The notes beneath the pieces are model-generated. The model worked only from the letters and a program-made list of their open reading frames with translations. It did no database searches and was not told the DNA's origin. From assembly GCA_019638525.1 (NCBI GenBank), contig JAHBTO010000003.1, positions 186,001 to 250,000 on the forward strand: a stretch of DNA of 64,000 bases. The letters run 5' to 3'. This document shows, piece by piece, positions 50,269 through 64,000 of this stretch. This DNA comes from Ferruginibacter sp. (lineage in GTDB: Bacteria; Bacteroidota; Bacteroidia; Chitinophagales; Chitinophagaceae). A program made the position numbers and the translations under genes. Position 1 is the stretch's first letter, and the number at the start of each line of letters is the position of its first letter.

Positions 50269-51198
50269 TCATAGCGAACCCAATGCGTTATTCATATTTC
50301 TAACAGCATCGGCACTTTTATTAAATAAAGCCTGCTCTTCGTCGTTTAGTTTATAGTCAATAATTTTTTCGATACCATTGCGACCAATGATAACCGGTAC
50401 ACCAATACATATATCTTTTTGTGCATACTCTCCATCTAAATAAACACAACAGGGAAATAATTTTTTCTCATCCCTTACAATGCTTTCAACCAATGCAGCG
50501 CCTGCAGCGCCGGGAGCATACCAGGCCGATGTGCCCAGTAAACCGGTAAGTGTAGCGCCGCCAACCATGGTATCGGCAGCCACCTTTTTTAATGTATCTG
50601 CATCTAAATAATTAGCAACCGGTGTACCCTGGTATGTGGCCAATCTTGTTAAAGGTATCATGGTGGTATCGCCGTGGCCGCCAATAACTACGCCTTGCAA
50701 ATCGGTAGAAGTGCAACCCATTGCTTTTGACAGGTAATATTTAAATCGGCTGCTGTCTAAAATACCACCCATACCAATAATCCTGTTTTTGGGTAAGCCG
50801 CTCGACTTTAATGCCAGGTATGTCATTGTATCCATTGGGTTGCTGATGATTACAATGATGGCATTGGGCGAATGTTTTAAAATATTTTCAGTAACAGTTT
50901 TTACAATACCTGCATTAATGCCAATCAATTCTTCACGTGTCATACCAGGTTTACGGGGAATACCCGAAGTGATAACGGCTACATCCGTTCCTGCAGTTTT
51001 TGAATAATCATTTGTGCTGCCGGTTATCCTGGTATCAAAACCAAGCAGGGCTGCTGTTTGCATCAGGTCCATGGCCTTACCTTCGGCCACGCCTTCTTTA
51101 ATATCCACTAAAACAAGTTCATCACAAAGTTCTTTACGGGCAATATTATCGGCACAGGTAGCGCCAACAGCGCCTGCTCCAACTACAGTTACTTTCAT
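50269..51198 (-). CDS. mdh: Malate dehydrogenase
   Basis: A 309-residue LDH-like malate dehydrogenase. The NAD fold is VVGAGAVGATCADN (4-17), the substrate-specificity loop is GIPRKPGMTREEL with the Arg that selects a dicarboxylate, ISNPMDTMTY follows, and the catalytic His is in VIGGHGDTTMIP. It acts in the TCA cycle with the citrate synthase at 28.3 kb. Confidence 0.96.
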   Translation of the reverse strand: MKVTVVGAGAVGATCADNIARKELCDELVLVDIKEGVAEGKAMDLMQTAALLGFDTRITGSTNDYSKTAGTDVAVITSGIPRKPGMTREELIGINAGIVKTVTENILKHSPNAIIVIISNPMDTMTYLALKSSGLPKNRIIGMGGILDSSRFKYYLSKAMGCTSTDLQGVVIGGHGDTTMIPLTRLATYQGTPVANYLDADTLKKVAADTMVGGATLTGLLGTSAWYAPGAAGAALVESIVRDEKKLFPCCVYLDGEYAQKDICIGVPVIIGRNGIEKIIDYKLNDEEQALFNKSADAVRNMNNALGSL

Positions 51199-54883: not shown

Positions 54884-56245
54884 TTACGCCCCATCAACCA
54901 TATCAAACCAAAGTGAAAATGCTGTGCCTTCGCCCGGTACACTGTTTACCTGAATGGTGCCTTTGTGCAGCATCATTATTTGTTTGCAAAGGCTTAAACC
55001 GATGCCGCTGCCGGTTTTACGGGTACTGAAAAATGGTACGAATATTTTTTCCATCAGTTCGGCAGAGATGCCTACACCATTATCTGATACTTTGATGACT
55101 GTTTTATTATTGCCGGTATTGTAACCCGATAAATGGATACGTGGCGCTGCTACTTCTTTTACAGCTTCTGTAGCATTCAGTATCAGGTTAATTAAAACCT
55201 GTTCAATCAAACTTGGGTCAACCTCCAACTCTAAACCGGGGTCTTTTAAAATAATATCCAGTTCAATATTTTTTTGTTCAAGTGTGGGCTGCATCAGGCG
55301 GTGCATGTTTTCAAACATATCCCTCACAAAAATCTTTTTTACATTGGGGGTGGTAATTTTATTAAGGTTGCGATAGGTTTCAGCAAATCTTAAAAGGCCT
55401 TCACTTCTTTTTTTTATGGTTTCAATACCAAGCTCCAAGTCATCAAGCGAGCCGGCATTATTGTTAAGCTCTTTTAAGGAAAGCTGTAAACGGTTTTTTA
55501 AAGTATCGGCAAGCGATGAAATAGGAGCCACCGAATTCATAATTTCATGCGTCATCACACTTAGCAGTTTTTGCCATGCTTTTGATTCGGTTTCATCAAG
55601 CGCTTCATTAATGTTTTGAAAAGCCACTAACTTATACACTTTGCCATCCGTTTGAAAAGCCGTGGCAGACAACAATATTTTTAAATTGTTTTTATCCGAA
55701 ACAATGGGCACCACTTTATGATCGCCGGGTTTTAAGCCTAAGATTTCGTTGTACAATGTTTCATCTCTTTTTTGGAGCGATTGGATGGTTTTAAGGTAAG
55801 GTATGTTTAATAATTGTTTCAGCGATTCGTTCATCCACATTACTTCACCATCTTGATGATTGTATGATAAAATACCTGTATCAACCAACTCCAAAATTTT
55901 TTGCAGGTATTGATATTGTGTTTCCCTTTCTTTACTTATAAGTTTAAGTGTGCTGTTTATTTCATTAAAACCTTTACGCATGGGCTGTATAGCCACCGGT
56001 GCGTTCTTTTCATCAAAATGCCTCGAAAAATCACGGTAGTGTACCGACTCTACAAACTGCTCAAGCTCCATGCGGCTTCTGTTACTGAAACGATATAAAT
56101 CAATAACCTGTATTATTATTACAACAACCAGCAGCATCATAAAAAGTATATACCCATTTACCAATAACCATGCAGTGGCACTTAGTGTTACAAACAACAA
56201 CACTATACGTATTACCAGGTTCCAGTCGTATTTTTTAAATATCAT
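54884..56245 (-). CDS. Sensor histidine kinase of NtrB/NtrY type
   Basis: A 453-residue kinase. Two TM segments lie at about 8-29 and 32-50, then a linker, a PAS-like domain at about 110-215, the phospho-acceptor His233 in VMTHEIMNSVAP, and a HATPase domain with NLILNATEAV, VSDNGVGIS and TGSGIGLSLCKQIM. The PAS and H-box type are of the kinases that pair with sigma-54 activators. It overlaps the activator gene by 11 bases, so the two are co-translated and are a cognate pair. Confidence 0.92.
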   Translation of the reverse strand: MIFKKYDWNLVIRIVLLFVTLSATAWLLVNGYILFMMLLVVVIIIQVIDLYRFSNRSRMELEQFVESVHYRDFSRHFDEKNAPVAIQPMRKGFNEINSTLKLISKERETQYQYLQKILELVDTGILSYNHQDGEVMWMNESLKQLLNIPYLKTIQSLQKRDETLYNEILGLKPGDHKVVPIVSDKNNLKILLSATAFQTDGKVYKLVAFQNINEALDETESKAWQKLLSVMTHEIMNSVAPISSLADTLKNRLQLSLKELNNNAGSLDDLELGIETIKKRSEGLLRFAETYRNLNKITTPNVKKIFVRDMFENMHRLMQPTLEQKNIELDIILKDPGLELEVDPSLIEQVLINLILNATEAVKEVAAPRIHLSGYNTGNNKTVIKVSDNGVGISAELMEKIFVPFFSTRKTGSGIGLSLCKQIMMLHKGTIQVNSVPGEGTAFSLWFDMVDGA

Positions 56246-57590
56246 ACTTACTTAATCTGCGGTATAAAGCTGTACGGGTTATACCTAATTCTTTTGCTGC
56301 TTTTGAAATATTACCACCATGTTTTTCTATCACCCTAAGTATTGTATTTTTTTCAACCACTCCTAAATTCATATCTTTTGTTTCTGCAGTTTCATGCACT
56401 GCATTTTCAATTGGTGAAAAAATCAGGTCATCGGCTGTTAGTGTTTCACCATCCAACATAATGATGGCTCTCTCCATAGTGTACTGCAGTTCACGTACAT
56501 TGCCCGGAAAATGATAATGGTTCAGCTTATCAATAGCTTTTGCATCAAAACCCGGAACCGGCTTTAAATATTTTGCCGCATATAGTTGTGCAAAATGATT
56601 TGCCAGTAACATGATATCGGCGCCTCTTTTACGAAGTGGTGGTACCAATATTTCAACAGTGTTGATACGGTAAATAAGATCTTTTCTAAACCGGTTTTCA
56701 TCGGCCAGTTCGGCAATAGGCAGGTTGGTGGCGCATACCAGGCGTATATCAATATTGATGGGAACATTGCTACCAACACGGGCCACTTGCCTGTTTTGTA
56801 AAACACTTAACAGCTTTGCCTGTTGCTGCATCGAAATATTGCCTATTTCATCCAGAAACAATGTACCGCCGTTGGCTGTTTCAAATCTTCCTGCACGGTC
56901 TTCGCCGGCGCCGGTAAACGAGCCTTTCTTATGGCCAAACAGCTCACTTTCAAAAAGTGTTTCTGTTAATGCGCCTACATCAACTTTTACAAAAGGTTTA
57001 TCGGCCCTTAACGAATTATCATGAATAGCTTTGGCGATGAGGTCTTTACCGGTTCCATTTTCGCCCAGTATAAAAATATTGGCATCGGTGGGTGCAATTT
57101 TTTCAATCTTAAAAAAAATATCGCTCATCACTTCCGATTTGCCGATGATTTCTTTACCAATATTAAATGCATTGCTTACCGGTATATCGGATATTACTTT
57201 TCCTTTCCCTTTTAAAATACCAGTTATGGCATTTAATAATTTTTCATTGTGCCAGGGCTTTACAATAAAATCAGTAGCACCTTCTTTTAACGAACGAACA
57301 GCCAGGTCAATATCTCCATAAGCAGTTATCATGATTACAGAAATATTTTCATCCAGCGATTTTATTTTCTTTAACCAAAAAATACCTTCATTGCCTGTGT
57401 TGATGCTGCTTTTAAAGTTCATATCAAGCAATACAATATCAAACTTTGATGATGATAACAGCGACTGTATCATTTCGGGATTTACTTCTGTAACTACTTC
57501 TTTTGCTTCGGTTTTTAATAAAAGCTTTACAGCAGTGAGTACATCTGTATCATCATCAATAACCAATATCCGTGCATTTTTTAAAATCAT
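56235..57590 (-). CDS. Sigma-54-dependent response regulator, NtrC family
   Basis: A 451-residue activator. The receiver has Asp56 (VLLDMNF). The AAA+ domain has Walker A GENGTGKD (176-183), the sigma-54 contact loop GSFTGA (223-228, a mild variant of GAFTGA) and Walker B GGTLFLDEIG. The C-terminus has a Fis-type HTH ending GITRTALYRRLSKYDI. I chose the ATG at 57590. It is divergent from the 61-aa gene and the exporter, with repeated elements in between that look like its binding sites. Confidence 0.93.
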   Translation of the reverse strand: MILKNARILVIDDDTDVLTAVKLLLKTEAKEVVTEVNPEMIQSLLSSSKFDIVLLDMNFKSSINTGNEGIFWLKKIKSLDENISVIMITAYGDIDLAVRSLKEGATDFIVKPWHNEKLLNAITGILKGKGKVISDIPVSNAFNIGKEIIGKSEVMSDIFFKIEKIAPTDANIFILGENGTGKDLIAKAIHDNSLRADKPFVKVDVGALTETLFESELFGHKKGSFTGAGEDRAGRFETANGGTLFLDEIGNISMQQQAKLLSVLQNRQVARVGSNVPINIDIRLVCATNLPIAELADENRFRKDLIYRINTVEILVPPLRKRGADIMLLANHFAQLYAAKYLKPVPGFDAKAIDKLNHYHFPGNVRELQYTMERAIIMLDGETLTADDLIFSPIENAVHETAETKDMNLGVVEKNTILRVIEKHGGNISKAAKELGITRTALYRRLSKYDI

Positions 57591-57680: not shown

Positions 57681-57720
57681 TGTATCAAAAACGTATAACA
57701 GTTGTATCAAAACCGAACAG
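57681..57720 (+). promoter_or_regulatory. Enhancer-like repeat pair 1
   Basis: TGTATCAAAAACGTATAACAG (57681-57701, one unit with changes) and TGTATCAAAACCGAACAG (57703-57720) start 22 bp apart. They lie 56 bp upstream of the GG of the sigma-54 promoter at 57776. Each unit has a partial dyad TGT...ACA. Likely binding sites of the NtrC-like protein. Confidence 0.65.
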
Positions 57721-57775
57721 GTTTATTTTTTGCTTATTTTAATCTTGCTGAAAAACAAGCTATTAAGTTTTGGCA

Positions 57776-57791
57776 TGGCATTTAATATGCT
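57776..57791 (+). promoter_or_regulatory. Sigma-54 promoter of the 61-aa gene
   Basis: TGGCATTTAATATGCT: GG at 57777-57778 and GC at 57789-57790 with exactly ten bases between, and flanks TGGCA and TGCT as in the -24/-12 consensus. It lies 42 bases before the ATG at 57833. Confidence 0.7.
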
Positions 57792-57832
57792 TAAAGTGAA
57801 AATAAATTTATTAAAATTTAAAAACTAAAGCC

Positions 57833-58018
57833 ATGAACTTTCAATCATCAAAAAACTTATCACTCGTAAATAACGAAGGGGTAAACAATTTGCCAGCAGA
57901 ATTAAAAAAAATAATACTGCCCGATTTTAAAAAAGCCGGCAACCATAATTTTAGCGCAGCCGAATTGTGGAATATTCAACGTAATAAAAGAGTGAAGCGC
58001 AACAGGTGGTATTTTTAA
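57833..58018 (+). CDS. Small cationic protein, 61 residues
   Basis: A 61-residue protein with no signal peptide. The N-terminus is rich in Asn and Ser, a short middle has LPAELKKIILPDF, and the end is strongly basic (NIQRNKRVKRNRWYF). It lies downstream of a sigma-54 promoter and divergent from the NtrC-like regulator. I do not recognise the family. It may be a small regulator or a secreted signal or bacteriocin-like peptide for the exporter that follows, but nothing proves it. Confidence 0.6.
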   Translation: MNFQSSKNLSLVNNEGVNNLPAELKKIILPDFKKAGNHNFSAAELWNIQRNKRVKRNRWYF

Positions 58019-58032
58019 GAAAACCATAAAAC

Positions 58033-58072
58033 TGTATCAAAACCGAACAGTTTCTGTATCAAAACCGAACAG
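58033..58072 (+). promoter_or_regulatory. Enhancer-like repeat pair 2
   Basis: TGTATCAAAACCGAACAG occurs twice, exactly, at 58033-58050 and 58055-58072, 22 bp apart, the same spacing as pair 1. It lies 51 bp before the GG of the sigma-54-like site at 58123. Confidence 0.7.
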
Positions 58073-58122
58073 TTTTAATAACTGCTTATTTTTAAAAATT
58101 TGTAAACCAGTGTTTTAGCTTG

Positions 58123-58137
58123 TGGCACAACTTTGAA
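58123..58137 (+). promoter_or_regulatory. Weak sigma-54-like promoter of the export operon
   Basis: TGGCACAACTTTGAA has a perfect -24 half (TGGCAC) but the -12 half is TTTGAA in place of TTGC and about one base too close. The distance from repeat pair 2 is much like that of pair 1 from its promoter, which supports it. Confidence 0.4.
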
Positions 58138-58210: not shown

Positions 58211-59467
58211 ATGGACAGAGTAATTGAAAAAAAAGGTTGGAACAAAAAAAGAATAACGCTTGTAATTGGCATTATTGCTTTACTGGCATTAATAATAGCC
58301 AGTTGGTATTTTACATCGGGCAAATCAAAACTTAATGTTAATACCGATAGAATTACTATCAGCGAAATTAAACAAGGAACTTTCCAGGAGTTTATACCTG
58401 TAAATGGTGTGGTACTACCTGTAACAACTATATACCTTGATGCGTTAGAAGGAGGAAGGGTTGAAGAAAAATATGTGGAAGACGGCGCTATCATGAAAAA
58501 AGGCCAGCCCATACTTAGGTTAAGTAATACCGACCTTGAGCTGAGCCTGGTAAACCAGGAGACATCAGTTTTTAACCTACTTACCCAAATGCAGATATCA
58601 CGCAATGCTGCACAGCAAAATACTATTGGTAAATTAAACCAGCGCACCGATGTGGATAATGCATTAAAAGAAGCCGAACGAATTTATAAACTAAATAAAA
58701 AATTGTACGATGAAAAAGTAATAGGCAGCCAGGAATTTAAACAATCAGAAAATAATTATAAATATCAACTTGAAAAGAAAAAACTTGCTGATGAAGTGCT
58801 AAGAAAAGACTCAGTATCTACAAGGCAGGAACAGAACCAGGCCAGTGAATCGTTTGCACGTACACAAAATGCTTTGCAGGTGATGCGTAAAAAAGTGGGC
58901 GACCTGATTGTAAGGGCGCCGGTTGACGGGCAGCTTACATCGCTGGATGCAGAAATTGGCCAGTCGAAAAATAAAGGCGAACGTTTAGGACAAATAGATG
59001 TGATGAGCGGATTTAAAGTGCGGGTAGATATTGATGAACATTATATATCCAGGATATTTAACGGGCTGATAGGAGAATGTAATATTGCAGGAAAAGAATA
59101 CAAGCTTAGTATAAAAAAAGTTTTTACGCAGGTAACCAATGGCCGTTTCCAGGTGGATATGCAGTTTAACGATACCGTGCCGCAGGGCATACGCCGTGGA
59201 CAAACATTACAGATAAGGCTTGCATTGAGCGACGAAACAACAGCTTTGCTTTTGCCTAAAGGAGGTTTTTATCAACAAACAGGCGGTAACTGGATTTTTA
59301 AATTGGCTGATAATGGTAAGGTTGCCTATAAAGTGGATATTCAACTGGGTCGCCAAAACCCCGATTATTTTGAAGTAATGCAAGGCCTTAAACCGGGTGA
59401 TAAAGTAATTACATCCAGCTATGAAAATTATGGCAATATGCAGGAGCTGGTATTAAAGAAAGAATAA
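58211..59467 (+). CDS. HlyD-family periplasmic adaptor of ABC exporter
   Basis: A 418-residue membrane fusion protein with one TM helix (about 14-31), a lipoyl/beta-barrel start EFIPVNGVVLPVTTIYL, an alpha hairpin at about 105-225, a second lipoyl half with VGDLIVRAPVDGQLTS, and a C-terminal beta-barrel and membrane-proximal domain. It links the inner-membrane ABC permeases to an outer-membrane channel. It is the first gene of the exporter operon, preceded by repeat pair 2. Confidence 0.9.
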   Translation: MDRVIEKKGWNKKRITLVIGIIALLALIIASWYFTSGKSKLNVNTDRITISEIKQGTFQEFIPVNGVVLPVTTIYLDALEGGRVEEKYVEDGAIMKKGQPILRLSNTDLELSLVNQETSVFNLLTQMQISRNAAQQNTIGKLNQRTDVDNALKEAERIYKLNKKLYDEKVIGSQEFKQSENNYKYQLEKKKLADEVLRKDSVSTRQEQNQASESFARTQNALQVMRKKVGDLIVRAPVDGQLTSLDAEIGQSKNKGERLGQIDVMSGFKVRVDIDEHYISRIFNGLIGECNIAGKEYKLSIKKVFTQVTNGRFQVDMQFNDTVPQGIRRGQTLQIRLALSDETTALLLPKGGFYQQTGGNWIFKLADNGKVAYKVDIQLGRQNPDYFEVMQGLKPGDKVITSSYENYGNMQELVLKKE

Positions 59468-59495: not shown

Positions 59496-59717
59496 ATGAG
59501 AAAACTAATTCTTTTATTGATGATGATTTTTATACTGTGCATTAGTTTGCTTAATGAAAATAAGCTACAGGCTTGTGATGCAAATATGGCTGTATGCGGC
59601 GTTTTAAATACATCAACAACTGAAGTGAAAACAAACGTTAATAAAATTCAAGTTGAATATACAAGTGAAATTGATATGCCGCTAAATGCATTGATGAACC
59701 CATTTATACCTATGTAA
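59496..59717 (+). CDS. Small exported peptide within the exporter operon
   Basis: A 73-residue peptide. The first 26 residues form a signal peptide (RKLILLLMMIFILCISLL), with likely cleavage at LQA before Cys27. The mature part has two Cys (DANMAVC) seven apart, then a polar segment ending MPLNALMNPFIPM. It lies 28 bases after the adaptor and 31 before the ATPase, so it is part of the operon. I do not recognise it; it could be a cargo, an accessory subunit or a sensor peptide. Confidence 0.65.
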   Translation: MRKLILLLMMIFILCISLLNENKLQACDANMAVCGVLNTSTTEVKTNVNKIQVEYTSEIDMPLNALMNPFIPM

Positions 59718-59748: not shown

Positions 59749-60426
59749 ATGATAAAAATTACTGAACTGGAAAAAATCTATCGCACAGAAGAAGTAGAAA
59801 CTGTTGCCTTAAATAAATTATCAATTGAAGTAAAGGAGGGAGAGTTTGTTGCCATTATGGGGCCATCGGGCTGTGGTAAATCTACCTTGCTAAACATATT
59901 GGGCTTGCTGGATGACCCTGATGCAGGCAGTTTTATTTTTAACGGCACCGAAGTGGCGCATTTTAATGAAAGAAAAAGAGCCGACCTGCGTAAACACAAT
60001 ATTGGTTTTGTTTTTCAAAGCTTTAACCTCATTGATGAATTAACAGTGTTTGAAAATGTAGAACTGCCTTTGATTTATACCGGCGTAAAAGCCGGCGACA
60101 GGAAAAAAAGAGTGGAAGAAGTGCTGGATAAGATGCAGATTATGCACCGGCGAAACCATTACCCACAGCAGCTTTCGGGTGGGCAGCAACAAAGGGTGGC
60201 TGTGGCAAGGGCCGTGGTAAATAACCCAAAACTTATTCTTGCCGATGAGCCTACCGGTAACCTCGATTCATCGAACGGTAATGATGTAATGCAATTGCTT
60301 ACCGACCTGAATGAAAAAGGAACCACCGTGGTAATGGTAACACACTCTGAGCATGATGCCCGGTACAGCCACCGCATCATTCGCATGCTTGATGGGCAGG
60401 CCGTAATTGAAAACCTGATGCTATGA
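59749..60426 (+). CDS. ABC exporter ATPase, MacB type
   Basis: A 225-residue ATPase with Walker A GPSGCGKST (38-46), Q-loop VFQSFNLIDELTVFENV, signature LSGGQQQRVAVARAV and Walker [14 protein letters not shown]. It energises the two MacB/FtsX permeases encoded downstream and works with the HlyD adaptor. Confidence 0.92.
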   Translation: MIKITELEKIYRTEEVETVALNKLSIEVKEGEFVAIMGPSGCGKSTLLNILGLLDDPDAGSFIFNGTEVAHFNERKRADLRKHNIGFVFQSFNLIDELTVFENVELPLIYTGVKAGDRKKRVEEVLDKMQIMHRRNHYPQQLSGGQQQRVAVARAVVNNPKLILADEPTGNLDSSNGNDVMQLLTDLNEKGTTVVMVTHSEHDARYSHRIIRMLDGQAVIENLML

Positions 60427-60493
60427 TGATGACATAAGTATGTAAAATATTGGTTTAATCGCCGCCATGAAAACAACCAGTAAAAGTATAGCC

Positions 60494-62947
60494 ATGATAC
60501 GTAATTATATTAAGATTGCCTGGATGAATATGAAGAAGAATAAATTCTTCACCTTCATCAATATTTTTGGCCTTAGCGCCGGGCTTGCCTGCTGTATGCT
60601 CATTTCGCTTTACATCGTAAATGAAATTAGTTACGATAAATACCAGCGCAATGCAGATGATATCTACCAGTTGGGAACCATCTTTGTACAACAGGGAAAA
60701 GAAACTAAGATGCCGAGTACACCGGCGCCAATGGGTAAAACCATGCAGATGGAATATGCACAGGTTGTACAATCAGCTAGGCTGTTGCCACTTTTTGCAG
60801 ATGATAAAACTTTAATTCAATATAAAAGTAATAATCAAACCCCGGCATCATTTTACGAAACGGGTGGCTGCATTGCCGATTCTACTTTTTTTAAAATGTT
60901 TACTTATGATTTTATAGAAGGAACACAGGCAACAGCTCTTGATAATCCTAAAACTGTTGTTTTAAGCGAAGAAATTGCAAAAAAAATATTTGGCAACCAG
61001 CCTGCATTAAATAAAGTTATACATATAAGCAGTAATACAAATGGCGAAAACGATTATTTAGTTACAGGTGTGTTCAGGCCAATTCGTAAACCATCACATA
61101 TCAATTGCAGGTTTTTTCTTTCTTTAAGAGGTGGTGCAATGGATGCATATATTGCAGAAAGGGGAACCAATTTTGTTAACAACAACATGTTTTATACCTA
61201 CCTGCAATTAAAGCCAGGCAGTGATAAGAAAATACTACAGGCACAGTTTCCTGCATTTATTGAAAAATATGCAGGCAACGATTTGAAAGCAATGGGAGTA
61301 GGAAAGAAGATGTTTTTAACTGCTTTAAAAGATATTCATTTACGCTCGGGTATGAATAATAATGTAACCCCGCCGGGCAGTCTTACTTATTTATATATAC
61401 TTGCCAGTATTGCATTGTTTACTTTATTGATAGCCTGTATCAATTTCATGAACCTGTCAACAGCACGTTCATCAAAGCGTAGCGCCGAGGTGGGTATAAG
61501 AAAAGTGTTGGGTGCAGAACGAAGTTCACTCATCAGCCAGTTCCTGGGAGAATCTGTATTAATTAGCCTGGTGGCATTTGTTTTTGCACTTGCTATTACT
61601 ATGTTTATGTTGCCGGCATTTAATTCTGTATCGGGTAAAAACCTTAGCCTTTCTATTTACGATGACGGATTAACAATCATCATCTTCATTGCAGTGGCTA
61701 TTGTTGCAGGTTTACTGGCTGGCAGTTATCCTGCTTTTTATTTGTCTTCGTTTAAACCCGTAAAGGTGTTAAAAGGAAAACTCACTAATTCACTTGCGGT
61801 AGTATCACTTAGGAAAGGGTTGGTTGTATTCCAGTTTATCATTTCTGTAGTCCTCATCATTGCTTCAATTGTTATATCAAAGCAAATGTCTTTTTTGCGT
61901 TCGGCCGATCTTGGTTTTACAAAAGACCAACAGCTAATTATCCCTTTAAGAAGTGAAACAGCCAAAAAGATTTATCCATCTTTAAAAACCGAGATCGCAA
62001 AATTATCACAGGTTGAAAATGTGGGAGCATCTAACTACAATCCCGGCATTTTTAATCCAAGCGATAATTTGTATTATAAAGACGGGCAAACTATGAATGA
62101 TGCAAAACGTACTCGTGCTAACACAGTAGATGTAAGTTACCTGCGTACATTAGGTGTTCAACCGCTTGCCGGCCGTTTGTTTTCTGAAGAGTACCCGGCT
62201 GATACAGGATTTAGGGTTATACTGAATGAAACAGCTATAAAGCAAATTGGTTTTAAAAATGCACAGGATGCTATTGGCAAAAATGTTTATTTCGATTTCC
62301 AGGGGAAAAATTATGCGTTTGAAATTATTGGTGTGCTTAAGGATTTTCATTTTGAAGATATGCATCTGCCAATAACTCCTTATGGCTATAATTTAAGTAT
62401 GGGCAATGATTTTAATTACCTGTTAGTGCATTCTAAACCGGGTAATATAGCATCATTATTAAAAACAATTGAAACAAAATGGCATGCATTAAATCCAAAC
62501 GAGCCATTTGAATATAGTTTTTTAGATGAAGATTTTCAAAGAAATTATGAAGCTGATAGCAGGCTTTCATCAATAGTTGCATACTTTACATTAATTGCTA
62601 TAATTATTTCCTGCCTGGGTTTATTTGCCCTTGCAACCTTTAGTGCCGAACAACGAATAAAAGAAATAGGTGTACGCAAAGTTTTGGGTGCAAGTGTTGC
62701 CGGCATTGTTGCGCTTTTATCGAAAGATTTTTTAAAGCTTGTAATTATTGCCATTGTGGTGGCTACTCCAATTGCATGGTATGTTATGTATCGTTGGCTA
62801 CAGGATTTTGCTTATCGTGTTAATATTAACTGGTGGGAATTTGTACTGGCCGGTATTATAGCGGTGGTTATTGCAATCATTACAATAAGTTACCAGGCAA
62901 TCAAAGCAGCATTGGCTAACCCGGTGAAGAGTTTGAGGACAGAGTGA
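60494..62947 (+). CDS. ABC exporter permease, MacB/FtsX type
   Basis: An 817-residue permease starting MIRNYIKIAWMNMKKNKFF; an ATG nine codons earlier (60467) is less likely. TM1 is at about 18-42, then a MacB-type periplasmic core domain, an FtsX block of three TM segments (LLIACINFMNLSTARSSKR, then ESVLISLVAFVFALAI), a second periplasmic domain, and a final FtsX block (LGLFALATFSAEQRIKEIG). The duplicated layout is typical of the Bacteroidota ~800-residue antimicrobial-peptide-type permeases. The next gene is a paralogue. Confidence 0.92.
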   Translation: MIRNYIKIAWMNMKKNKFFTFINIFGLSAGLACCMLISLYIVNEISYDKYQRNADDIYQLGTIFVQQGKETKMPSTPAPMGKTMQMEYAQVVQSARLLPLFADDKTLIQYKSNNQTPASFYETGGCIADSTFFKMFTYDFIEGTQATALDNPKTVVLSEEIAKKIFGNQPALNKVIHISSNTNGENDYLVTGVFRPIRKPSHINCRFFLSLRGGAMDAYIAERGTNFVNNNMFYTYLQLKPGSDKKILQAQFPAFIEKYAGNDLKAMGVGKKMFLTALKDIHLRSGMNNNVTPPGSLTYLYILASIALFTLLIACINFMNLSTARSSKRSAEVGIRKVLGAERSSLISQFLGESVLISLVAFVFALAITMFMLPAFNSVSGKNLSLSIYDDGLTIIIFIAVAIVAGLLAGSYPAFYLSSFKPVKVLKGKLTNSLAVVSLRKGLVVFQFIISVVLIIASIVISKQMSFLRSADLGFTKDQQLIIPLRSETAKKIYPSLKTEIAKLSQVENVGASNYNPGIFNPSDNLYYKDGQTMNDAKRTRANTVDVSYLRTLGVQPLAGRLFSEEYPADTGFRVILNETAIKQIGFKNAQDAIGKNVYFDFQGKNYAFEIIGVLKDFHFEDMHLPITPYGYNLSMGNDFNYLLVHSKPGNIASLLKTIETKWHALNPNEPFEYSFLDEDFQRNYEADSRLSSIVAYFTLIAIIISCLGLFALATFSAEQRIKEIGVRKVLGASVAGIVALLSKDFLKLVIIAIVVATPIAWYVMYRWLQDFAYRVNINWWEFVLAGIIAVVIAIITISYQAIKAALANPVKSLRTE

Positions 62948-62987: not shown

Positions 62988-64000
62988 ATGTTTAAAAATT
63001 ATTTCAAAATAGCATGGCGAAATCTTGTAAAAAATAAAGTGTATTCGGGTATTAATATAATGGGACTTGCTGCGGGGATGGCTGTGGCAATGTTGATTGC
63101 TTTGTGGATATGGGATGAAGTTACCTACGACAGGTATTTTGATAACCACAACCAACTGGCACAGGTTATGACAACCGTTGTGGATAATGATGGCAAAATG
63201 GCAACTAGCAGGGCGGTTTGTATGCCCATTGGTAAAGAGTTGCAACAGAAATATGGAAGTGATTTTAAAAACATTTCAATGTCGTCATGGAATTTTAGCC
63301 ATGTGCTGGGTGTAGGTGAAAAAAAAATCAGCGAAAAAGGTATGTGGGTGGAGGCATCTTTCCCCTCAATGTTTTCGCTAAAGATGATAAAAGGCAACAT
63401 CAATGCATTGAATGACCCTTCTTCTATTTTGATAAGTTCATCACTGGCTGAAACATTTTTTGGTAATGCTGACCCACTCAATAAAATGATAAGGTTGGAT
63501 AACAGGGACAATTATAAAGTAGCCGGTGTGTTTGAAGATTTCCCTGATAACACTACAATAAATGACTCGAAATACTTTCTCCCCTGGAAAAAGTATATCA
63601 CTACTGAAAACTGGTTAAAAGAATCAGCGACAGAATGGAACAATCATTCATGGCAATGTTATGTGCAGATGGCTGATAATATTGATATGGAAAAAGTTTC
63701 CGGGAAAATAAAGAACATAGTGATGGCACATAAAGATGCAAAGACTGAAGGAGTGGAGCAGGCATATATTTTCCCGATGAATAAATGGCGTTTGTACAGT
63801 GATTTTAAAAACGGCATACCTGCCGGTGGACGAATACAATTTATCTGGTTGTTTACAATCTTAGGTGTGTTTGTATTGTTGCTTGCATGCATCAACTTCA
63901 TGAACCTGTCCACTGCACGAAGCGAAAAACGAGCAAAGGAAGTTGGTATCCGTAAAACTGTGGGTTCATTGCGCTCACAATTAATCAACCAGTTTTTAAG
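62988..64000 (+). CDS. ABC exporter permease, MacB/FtsX type, cut by window end
   Basis: The frame is open from the ATG at 62988 to the window end, about 337 codons, C-terminus missing. MFKNYFKIAWRNLVKNKVY and LLLACINFMNLSTARSEKRAKEVGIRK match the first half of the preceding permease. It is probably the second permease of the same exporter, forming a hetero- or alternative dimer with it. Confidence 0.9.
   Translation, partial: MFKNYFKIAWRNLVKNKVYSGINIMGLAAGMAVAMLIALWIWDEVTYDRYFDNHNQLAQVMTTVVDNDGKMATSRAVCMPIGKELQQKYGSDFKNISMSSWNFSHVLGVGEKKISEKGMWVEASFPSMFSLKMIKGNINALNDPSSILISSSLAETFFGNADPLNKMIRLDNRDNYKVAGVFEDFPDNTTINDSKYFLPWKKYITTENWLKESATEWNNHSWQCYVQMADNIDMEKVSGKIKNIVMAHKDAKTEGVEQAYIFPMNKWRLYSDFKNGIPAGGRIQFIWLFTILGVFVLLLACINFMNLSTARSEKRAKEVGIRKTVGSLRSQLINQFL

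Follow-up and report, generated by a model that had tools for sequence, protein, structure and literature searches.

Repeat pairs and predicted promoters

In the 64,000-nucleotide stretch of Ferruginibacter sp. DNA analysed here (the window), several near-identical copies of a short repeat lie between the genes for a two-component regulator and those for an ABC exporter, which raises the question whether these repeats are operators of the neighbouring activator and, if so, which genes they would control. The 18-bp unit (TGTATCAAAACCGAACAG) is present in three exact copies and one variant (TGTATCAAAAACGTATAA), arranged as two pairs with a repeat period of 22 bp in both (Table 1). Each pair is followed by a TGGCA box (57771-57775 and 58123-58127), located 68 bp from the start and 50 bp from the end of the proximal repeat in both cases. 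These measurements agree with the initial annotation, which had listed three exact copies and one variant, two pairs phased at 22 bp and a distance of just over 50 bp to TGGCA, and which was also right about the neighbours, i.e. an NtrC-type activator with its kinase on one side and a 61-aa ORF, HlyD, a small ORF, ABC and MacB-type genes on the other. With up to three mismatches allowed, the window gave four matches against 0.07 expected by chance, the fourth of which (at 51031, with three mismatches) is unrelated to the repeat pairs. In the whole 3.4-Mb genome the only exact matches are the three copies in the window, the next best sites having 2-3 mismatches.

Table 1. Features of the repeat-bearing locus (positions in the window)
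Feature	Position	Strand	Basis or remark
Sensor histidine kinase, 453 aa, H-box THEIMNSVAPI	54884..56245	-	HATPase_c
NtrC-type response regulator/enhancer-binding protein	56235..57590	-	Receiver, AAA+ Sigma54_activat (GSFTGA), Fis-type HTH (ELGITRTALYRRL)
UAS of P1, distal variant copy (predicted)	57681..57698	+	Distal copies end GGATAx/GTATAx at other WNIQR promoters
UAS of P1, proximal exact copy (predicted)	57703..57720	+	Sequence search
P1 -24/-12-like element TGGCATGGCATTTAA	57771..57785	+	68 bp after proximal UAS start
61-aa WNIQR-family small protein	57833..58018	+	No Pfam/NCBIfam match
UAS of P2, distal exact copy (predicted)	58033..58050	+	Sequence search, conserved in orthologous loci
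UAS of P2, proximal exact copy (predicted)	58055..58072	+	Sequence search, conserved in orthologous loci
IHF-consensus-like element YAAnnnnTTGATW	58093..58105	+	7/9 positions; place of enrichment in HlyD-promoter set
P2 -24/-12-like element TGGCACAACTTTGAA	58123..58137	+	68 bp after proximal UAS start
HlyD-type periplasmic adaptor	58211..59467	+	Domain match
73-aa ORF, basic/hydrophobic start, signal-peptide-like by eye	59496..59717	+	Fast-changing small ORF here in most relatives
ABC ATPase, LolD/DarD-like	59749..60426	+	Profile matches
FtsX/MacB_PCD permease 1	60467..62947	+	Domain match
FtsX/MacB_PCD permease 2, runs off window end	62988..64000	+	Domain match

When the promoters of related loci are aligned on TGGCA, this -24 box is at a fixed place and reads TTGGCAY, followed by a T at +10 (~75%) and at +11 (94-100%). 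Relative to TGGCAC-N5-TTGC, the TT of the -12 element is thereby one base nearer to TGGCA and conservation of the GC is lacking; some sites do have a canonical -12 (e.g. CGGCACCCCTATTGCA in L162). As an observation on its own, the -12 of these sigma-54-like promoters of Bacteroidota can be written as TT(G/T), compared to the proteobacterial TTGC. For P1 a choice of register had to be made: a second TGGCA (57776-57780) overlaps the first P1 box and looks more canonical, with a TGC downstream. It was rejected as the true -24 box, because this TGC partner is lost in a close relative (L017) and the conserved spacing favours 57771, which makes the first register the conserved one. An rpoN gene is present in the genome (Sigma54_DBD, 176 bits, at C1:573738), and it is very likely that P1 and P2 depend on sigma-54, as predicted from their sequences.

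The DNA from the sites to TGGCA contains an element YAAnnnnTTGAwwATCA, mostly at the same position. At least 8 of the 9 IHF-consensus positions are matched at -31/-30 in ~48% of the promoters, compared to 7% of the shuffles, and we infer that IHF is the probable binder of this element.

Conservation of the sites in orthologous loci

The initial annotation had proposed that the repeats are binding sites of the activator and had named beforehand a lack of conservation of the repeats upstream of orthologous cassettes as an outcome that would refute this. The test, which the proposal passed, was run on 80 orthologous HlyD loci (L017-L096, 69-99% identity) from Chitinophagaceae and some Mucilaginibacter, nearly all of which have the kinase-activator pair on the opposite strand. 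A consensus, TGTATCRAAASCGNACAS, built from 96 pattern-selected sites, was found before the exporter (some copies with few differences) in 76 of the 78 loci with enough upstream sequence, a count that is inflated by relatedness and includes many metagenome-assembled loci. No motif was found upstream of HlyD in the other two (L062 and L089), and L059 and L075 were left out of the count for lack of upstream DNA.

The geometry is conserved as well. There are two slots for the strong copy, 22 bp apart, at a distance of 68-70 and 89-93 bp from TGGCA. The other slot often holds a weaker copy, which in several loci (e.g. L069 and L080) is a 16-bp palindrome, TGTnCG-N4-CGnACA. Scoring the matrix at every offset in the HlyD set gave a second site only at -22 (25% of the loci) and +22 (47%). 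The ends of the site are inverted (TGT-N11-ACA). Sites are kept while the surrounding DNA differs among loci, and their distance to TGGCA and to their target genes is fixed over many genera.

Activator, kinase and exporter genes

Motif and activator occur together across genomes. Among 149 genomes of the family, the exact motif was found 122 times and its reversed control not once, using a strict pattern by which weaker sites are missed. An activator orthologue (cut-off E <= 1e-140) is present in 73 of the 149, and the motif is found in 61 of these 73 versus only one of the 76 genomes without activator (Fisher p 4e-28, uncorrected for shared ancestry). The exceptions are 12 activator-bearing genomes in which the exact motif is absent and one genome (G108) with the motif in which the activator is absent at the cut-off used. 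Over 395 genomes of the phylum, the motif was found in 12, ten of which have the activator; outside the family, four of six motif-bearing genomes have it (60-65% identity), adjacent in three and ~11 kb away in one. In three loci (L034, L042 and L079) the exporter has no activator next to it and an orthologue is encoded elsewhere in the genome, so that the link between motif and activator holds in trans. Conserved sites, conserved geometry and co-occurrence even when unlinked thus support the annotated role of the repeats as predicted activator sites.

Among the 68 activator orthologues read, the recognition helix (ELG[LI]TRTALYRRL) hardly varies. For the loop contacting sigma-54, 72 activator sequences (orthologues in L017-L096) were compared: 61 have GAFTDA and the others GAFTGA or GSFTGA (the latter being the form in the window), and a search limited to GxFTGA accordingly recovered few of the activators. 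It is unusual for an entire clade to carry a natural G-to-D substitution in the GAFTGA motif. NCBIfam equivalog models do not identify the activator as NtrC (NR(I)), ZraR or AtoC (scores of 320.7 vs 558.6, 374.3 vs 760 and 369.4 vs 714, respectively). The two transmembrane helices of the kinase are adjacent, with hardly any loop between them, a topology common to the orthologues examined, and this is the layout of intramembrane-sensing kinases.

Exporter identities were likewise not reached, neither that of MacAB (MacA 24.4 vs 342; MacB 43.2 vs 966 for the permease and 226.3 vs 966 for the separate ATPase) nor that of the darobactin exporter (DarB 158.8 vs 700; DarC 163.6 vs 450; DarD 300.2 vs 375). 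The gap between HlyD and the ABC ATPase holds a small ORF with a hydrophobic start in ~56 of the 80 orthologous loci (counted by eye) and is empty in about a quarter. The C-terminus of these small ORFs is often SPLxxFxxNI-like, with little sequence conservation otherwise.

Predicted regulon

To see which genes the sites precede, 60 stretches with a total of 72 exact sites were read: 31 of the sites lie before an FtsX permease, 23 before HlyD, 10 before an ABC ATPase and 8 before other genes. HlyD, ABC-ATPase or FtsX (MacB-type) targets thus follow 64 of the 72 exact sites, versus none of the 29 weak matches (2-3 mismatches) in the genome of the window that served as control. Several of the ABC-ATPase targets are followed by a protein resembling a TolC-type outer-membrane factor. 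There are up to seven sites per genome (G086), several of them in one cluster in G136, G059 and G143, and in many genomes unlinked FtsX and ABC genes also have a site. The sites would therefore define a trans-acting sigma-54 exporter regulon that in many genomes extends beyond the two local genes; in the genome of the window the regulon seems confined to this locus.

WNIQR small proteins

The product of the 61-aa ORF, which had no match in Pfam or NCBIfam, falls into a family with a C-terminal signature (F[ST]AADLWNIQRxK/RxxxxxRR in the alignment). About a dozen loci have a WNIQR gene between activator and HlyD. In all of these the first copy is preceded by a site and a TGGCA of its own, though weaker ones in L082 and L087, and tandem second copies are in the same unit as the first. 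The distal site at WNIQR promoters typically ends in GGATAx, like the window variant, which ends in GTATAx, and the variant at 57681 is therefore itself conserved. An obligatory place in the regulon was rejected for WNIQR, as it is absent from most orthologous exporters and has paralogues elsewhere without a site; it is rather an accessory member. The annotated idea that one signal turns on small protein and exporter together is supported, sites being present before both, with two refinements: in many genomes the regulon is wider, and the small protein is an accessory.

A second WNIQR gene of the same genome (L133, G000:C1:756300-756464) lies downstream of a DnaJ-type gene and has no operator, and in L011, L012 and L015 a paralogue is found beside a PadR-type regulator and a PspC-like gene, neighbours that hint at envelope stress. 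Upstream in L011, L012 and L134 there is a TGGTAC...TTGC, possibly another sigma-54 promoter. AlphaFold predicts three helices for the 61-aa protein at low confidence (pLDDT 66, pTM 0.30), best around the WNIQR segment. It is conceivable, though speculative, that WNIQR proteins are a new stress-induced class of Chitinophagaceae, with the inner membrane or FtsX-type exporters as their point of action, and repeatedly recruited by different envelope-stress circuits (the sigma-54 regulon and PadR-PspC operons).

Proposed mechanism and alternative explanations

Taken as a whole, it is likely that the repeats are paired operators (UAS) of the divergent NtrC-type activator, one pair per sigma-54 promoter, with P1 serving WNIQR and P2 the exporter; for direct binding of the activator to the repeats the expectation is stronger still. 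The kinase, with scarcely any loop outside the membrane, would sense a disturbance of the inner membrane and phosphorylate the activator, dimers of which would occupy both sites, which at a spacing of 22 bp (two helical turns) share a DNA face, and allow the AAA+ ring to assemble. The DNA between sites and promoter would bend, probably through an IHF/HU-type protein, and ATP hydrolysis would let the sigma-54 polymerase open at TGGCAY-N4-TT. In relatives, several exporter genes at unlinked places would come under this activator in trans, making it the master regulator of the MacB/FtsX-like exporter family. Points that speak against the reading are the non-canonical -12 element, the share of common ancestry in the co-occurrence counts, the 12 activator-bearing genomes without an exact motif, the reverse case of G108 and the GAFTDA loop in most of the orthologues read.

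It could be argued that a different regulator (another sigma-54 activator or an ordinary repressor or activator) occupies the sites and that the adjacent NtrC-type protein controls something else, since the genome encodes two further proteins among its three with a full-strength Sigma54_activat match. However, one of these (L121, G000:C12:85324-85824) lacks an HTH, which among the three is found only in the activator of the window and in L122, and the recognition helices of the latter two differ. Together with the co-occurrence of activator and motif across genomes, also when unlinked, this makes such a reassignment very improbable. That a sigma-54 activator such as L121 ends without a DNA-binding domain is an observation in its own right. 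Short near-identical repeats in intergenic DNA may also belong to a mobile or structural family (REP-like, CRISPR-like or duplicated promoter debris) devoid of regulatory function, but the confinement of exact sites to this locus in the genome, the fixed distance to TGGCA and targets over many genera in otherwise differing DNA and the fact that no transposon features were seen leave hardly any room for this.

More weight is due to the purpose of the regulon. The sites may control exporters that serve to export a self-made peptide (the 73-aa product or a modified peptide) instead of envelope-stress defence, as the fast-changing small ORF between HlyD and ATPase in most loci and the best or near-best (yet below cut-off) scores of the exporter proteins to darobactin exporter models would suggest. 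Against this, the cassette contains no peptide-modifying enzyme, the slot for the small ORF is not always filled, a single genome can have many permease genes in the regulon and the kinase is without a sensor domain outside the membrane, so that self-made peptide export seems unlikely, if far less so than the two readings above. Between the operator function of the repeats and the task of the exporters there is a difference in confidence: that the signal is envelope stress or stress from membrane-active compounds is moderately probable, and export of toxic peptides or lipids rather than of a self-made product is favoured by a small degree.

Relation to known systems and significance

The predicted circuit shares with sigma-54/NtrC-family regulation (NtrC, NifA, ZraR and AtoC type) the receiver-AAA+-Fis HTH activator with its histidine kinase, the presence of rpoN, the paired sites with inverted ends (TGT-N11-ACA), in helical phase and within ~50-100 bp before the promoter, an IHF-like site in between and the TGGCA box. 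It differs from them in having an operator sequence of its own, recurrent exporter targets, a shifted -12 without GC and many GAFTDA orthologues. As in the MacA-MacB-TolC pump, a HlyD-type adaptor is combined with MacB_PCD/FtsX permeases and a LolD-like ATPase, but here ATPase and permease are separate proteins, and the MacA/MacB equivalog cut-offs are not reached. In Bce/Lia-type systems, intramembrane-sensing kinases are found with FtsX-like exporters, which resembles the two-helix kinase without extracellular domain adjoining FtsX-type transporter genes; the response regulator here is a sigma-54 activator instead, and the likeness is one of gene layout and topology.

In Flavobacterium psychrophilum, -24/-12 promoters mapped by transcription start sites define a sigma-54 regulon with envelope-stress genes, and there are three PF00158 activators (PMC9723704). 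The targets are different, however (chaperones, a protease, gliding and exported proteins), and the assignment of activators to targets was left open (PMC9723704). That sigma-54 controls FtsX-like ABC permeases (COG0577/COG1136) in Bacteroidia was predicted by a 2025 promoter survey (PMC12316311), an independent, large-scale scan that arrives at the same target class. Working with promoter matrices at the COG level, the survey in its accessible part mentions neither an activator, an operator or a kinase nor the geometry of paired sites or a small protein (PMC12316311). Our literature search, with a coverage mostly without subscription papers, returned no description of operator, activator or small protein, from which it seems that this predicted exporter regulon is previously undescribed and that WNIQR is an unannotated small-protein family.

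To the COG-level prediction of sigma-54 control of such permeases, as far as the available part of that survey goes, the present results add an exactly defined operator (TGTATCRAAASCGNACAS, in pairs phased at 22 bp and 68 bp from TGGCA) with a likely activator and a list of targets in Bacteroidota. The analysis also brings up an unannotated family of small proteins with a strict WNIQR motif. Through this operator code the role of orphan FtsX/MacB-type permeases becomes testable, as the genes that bear a site should answer to one signal.
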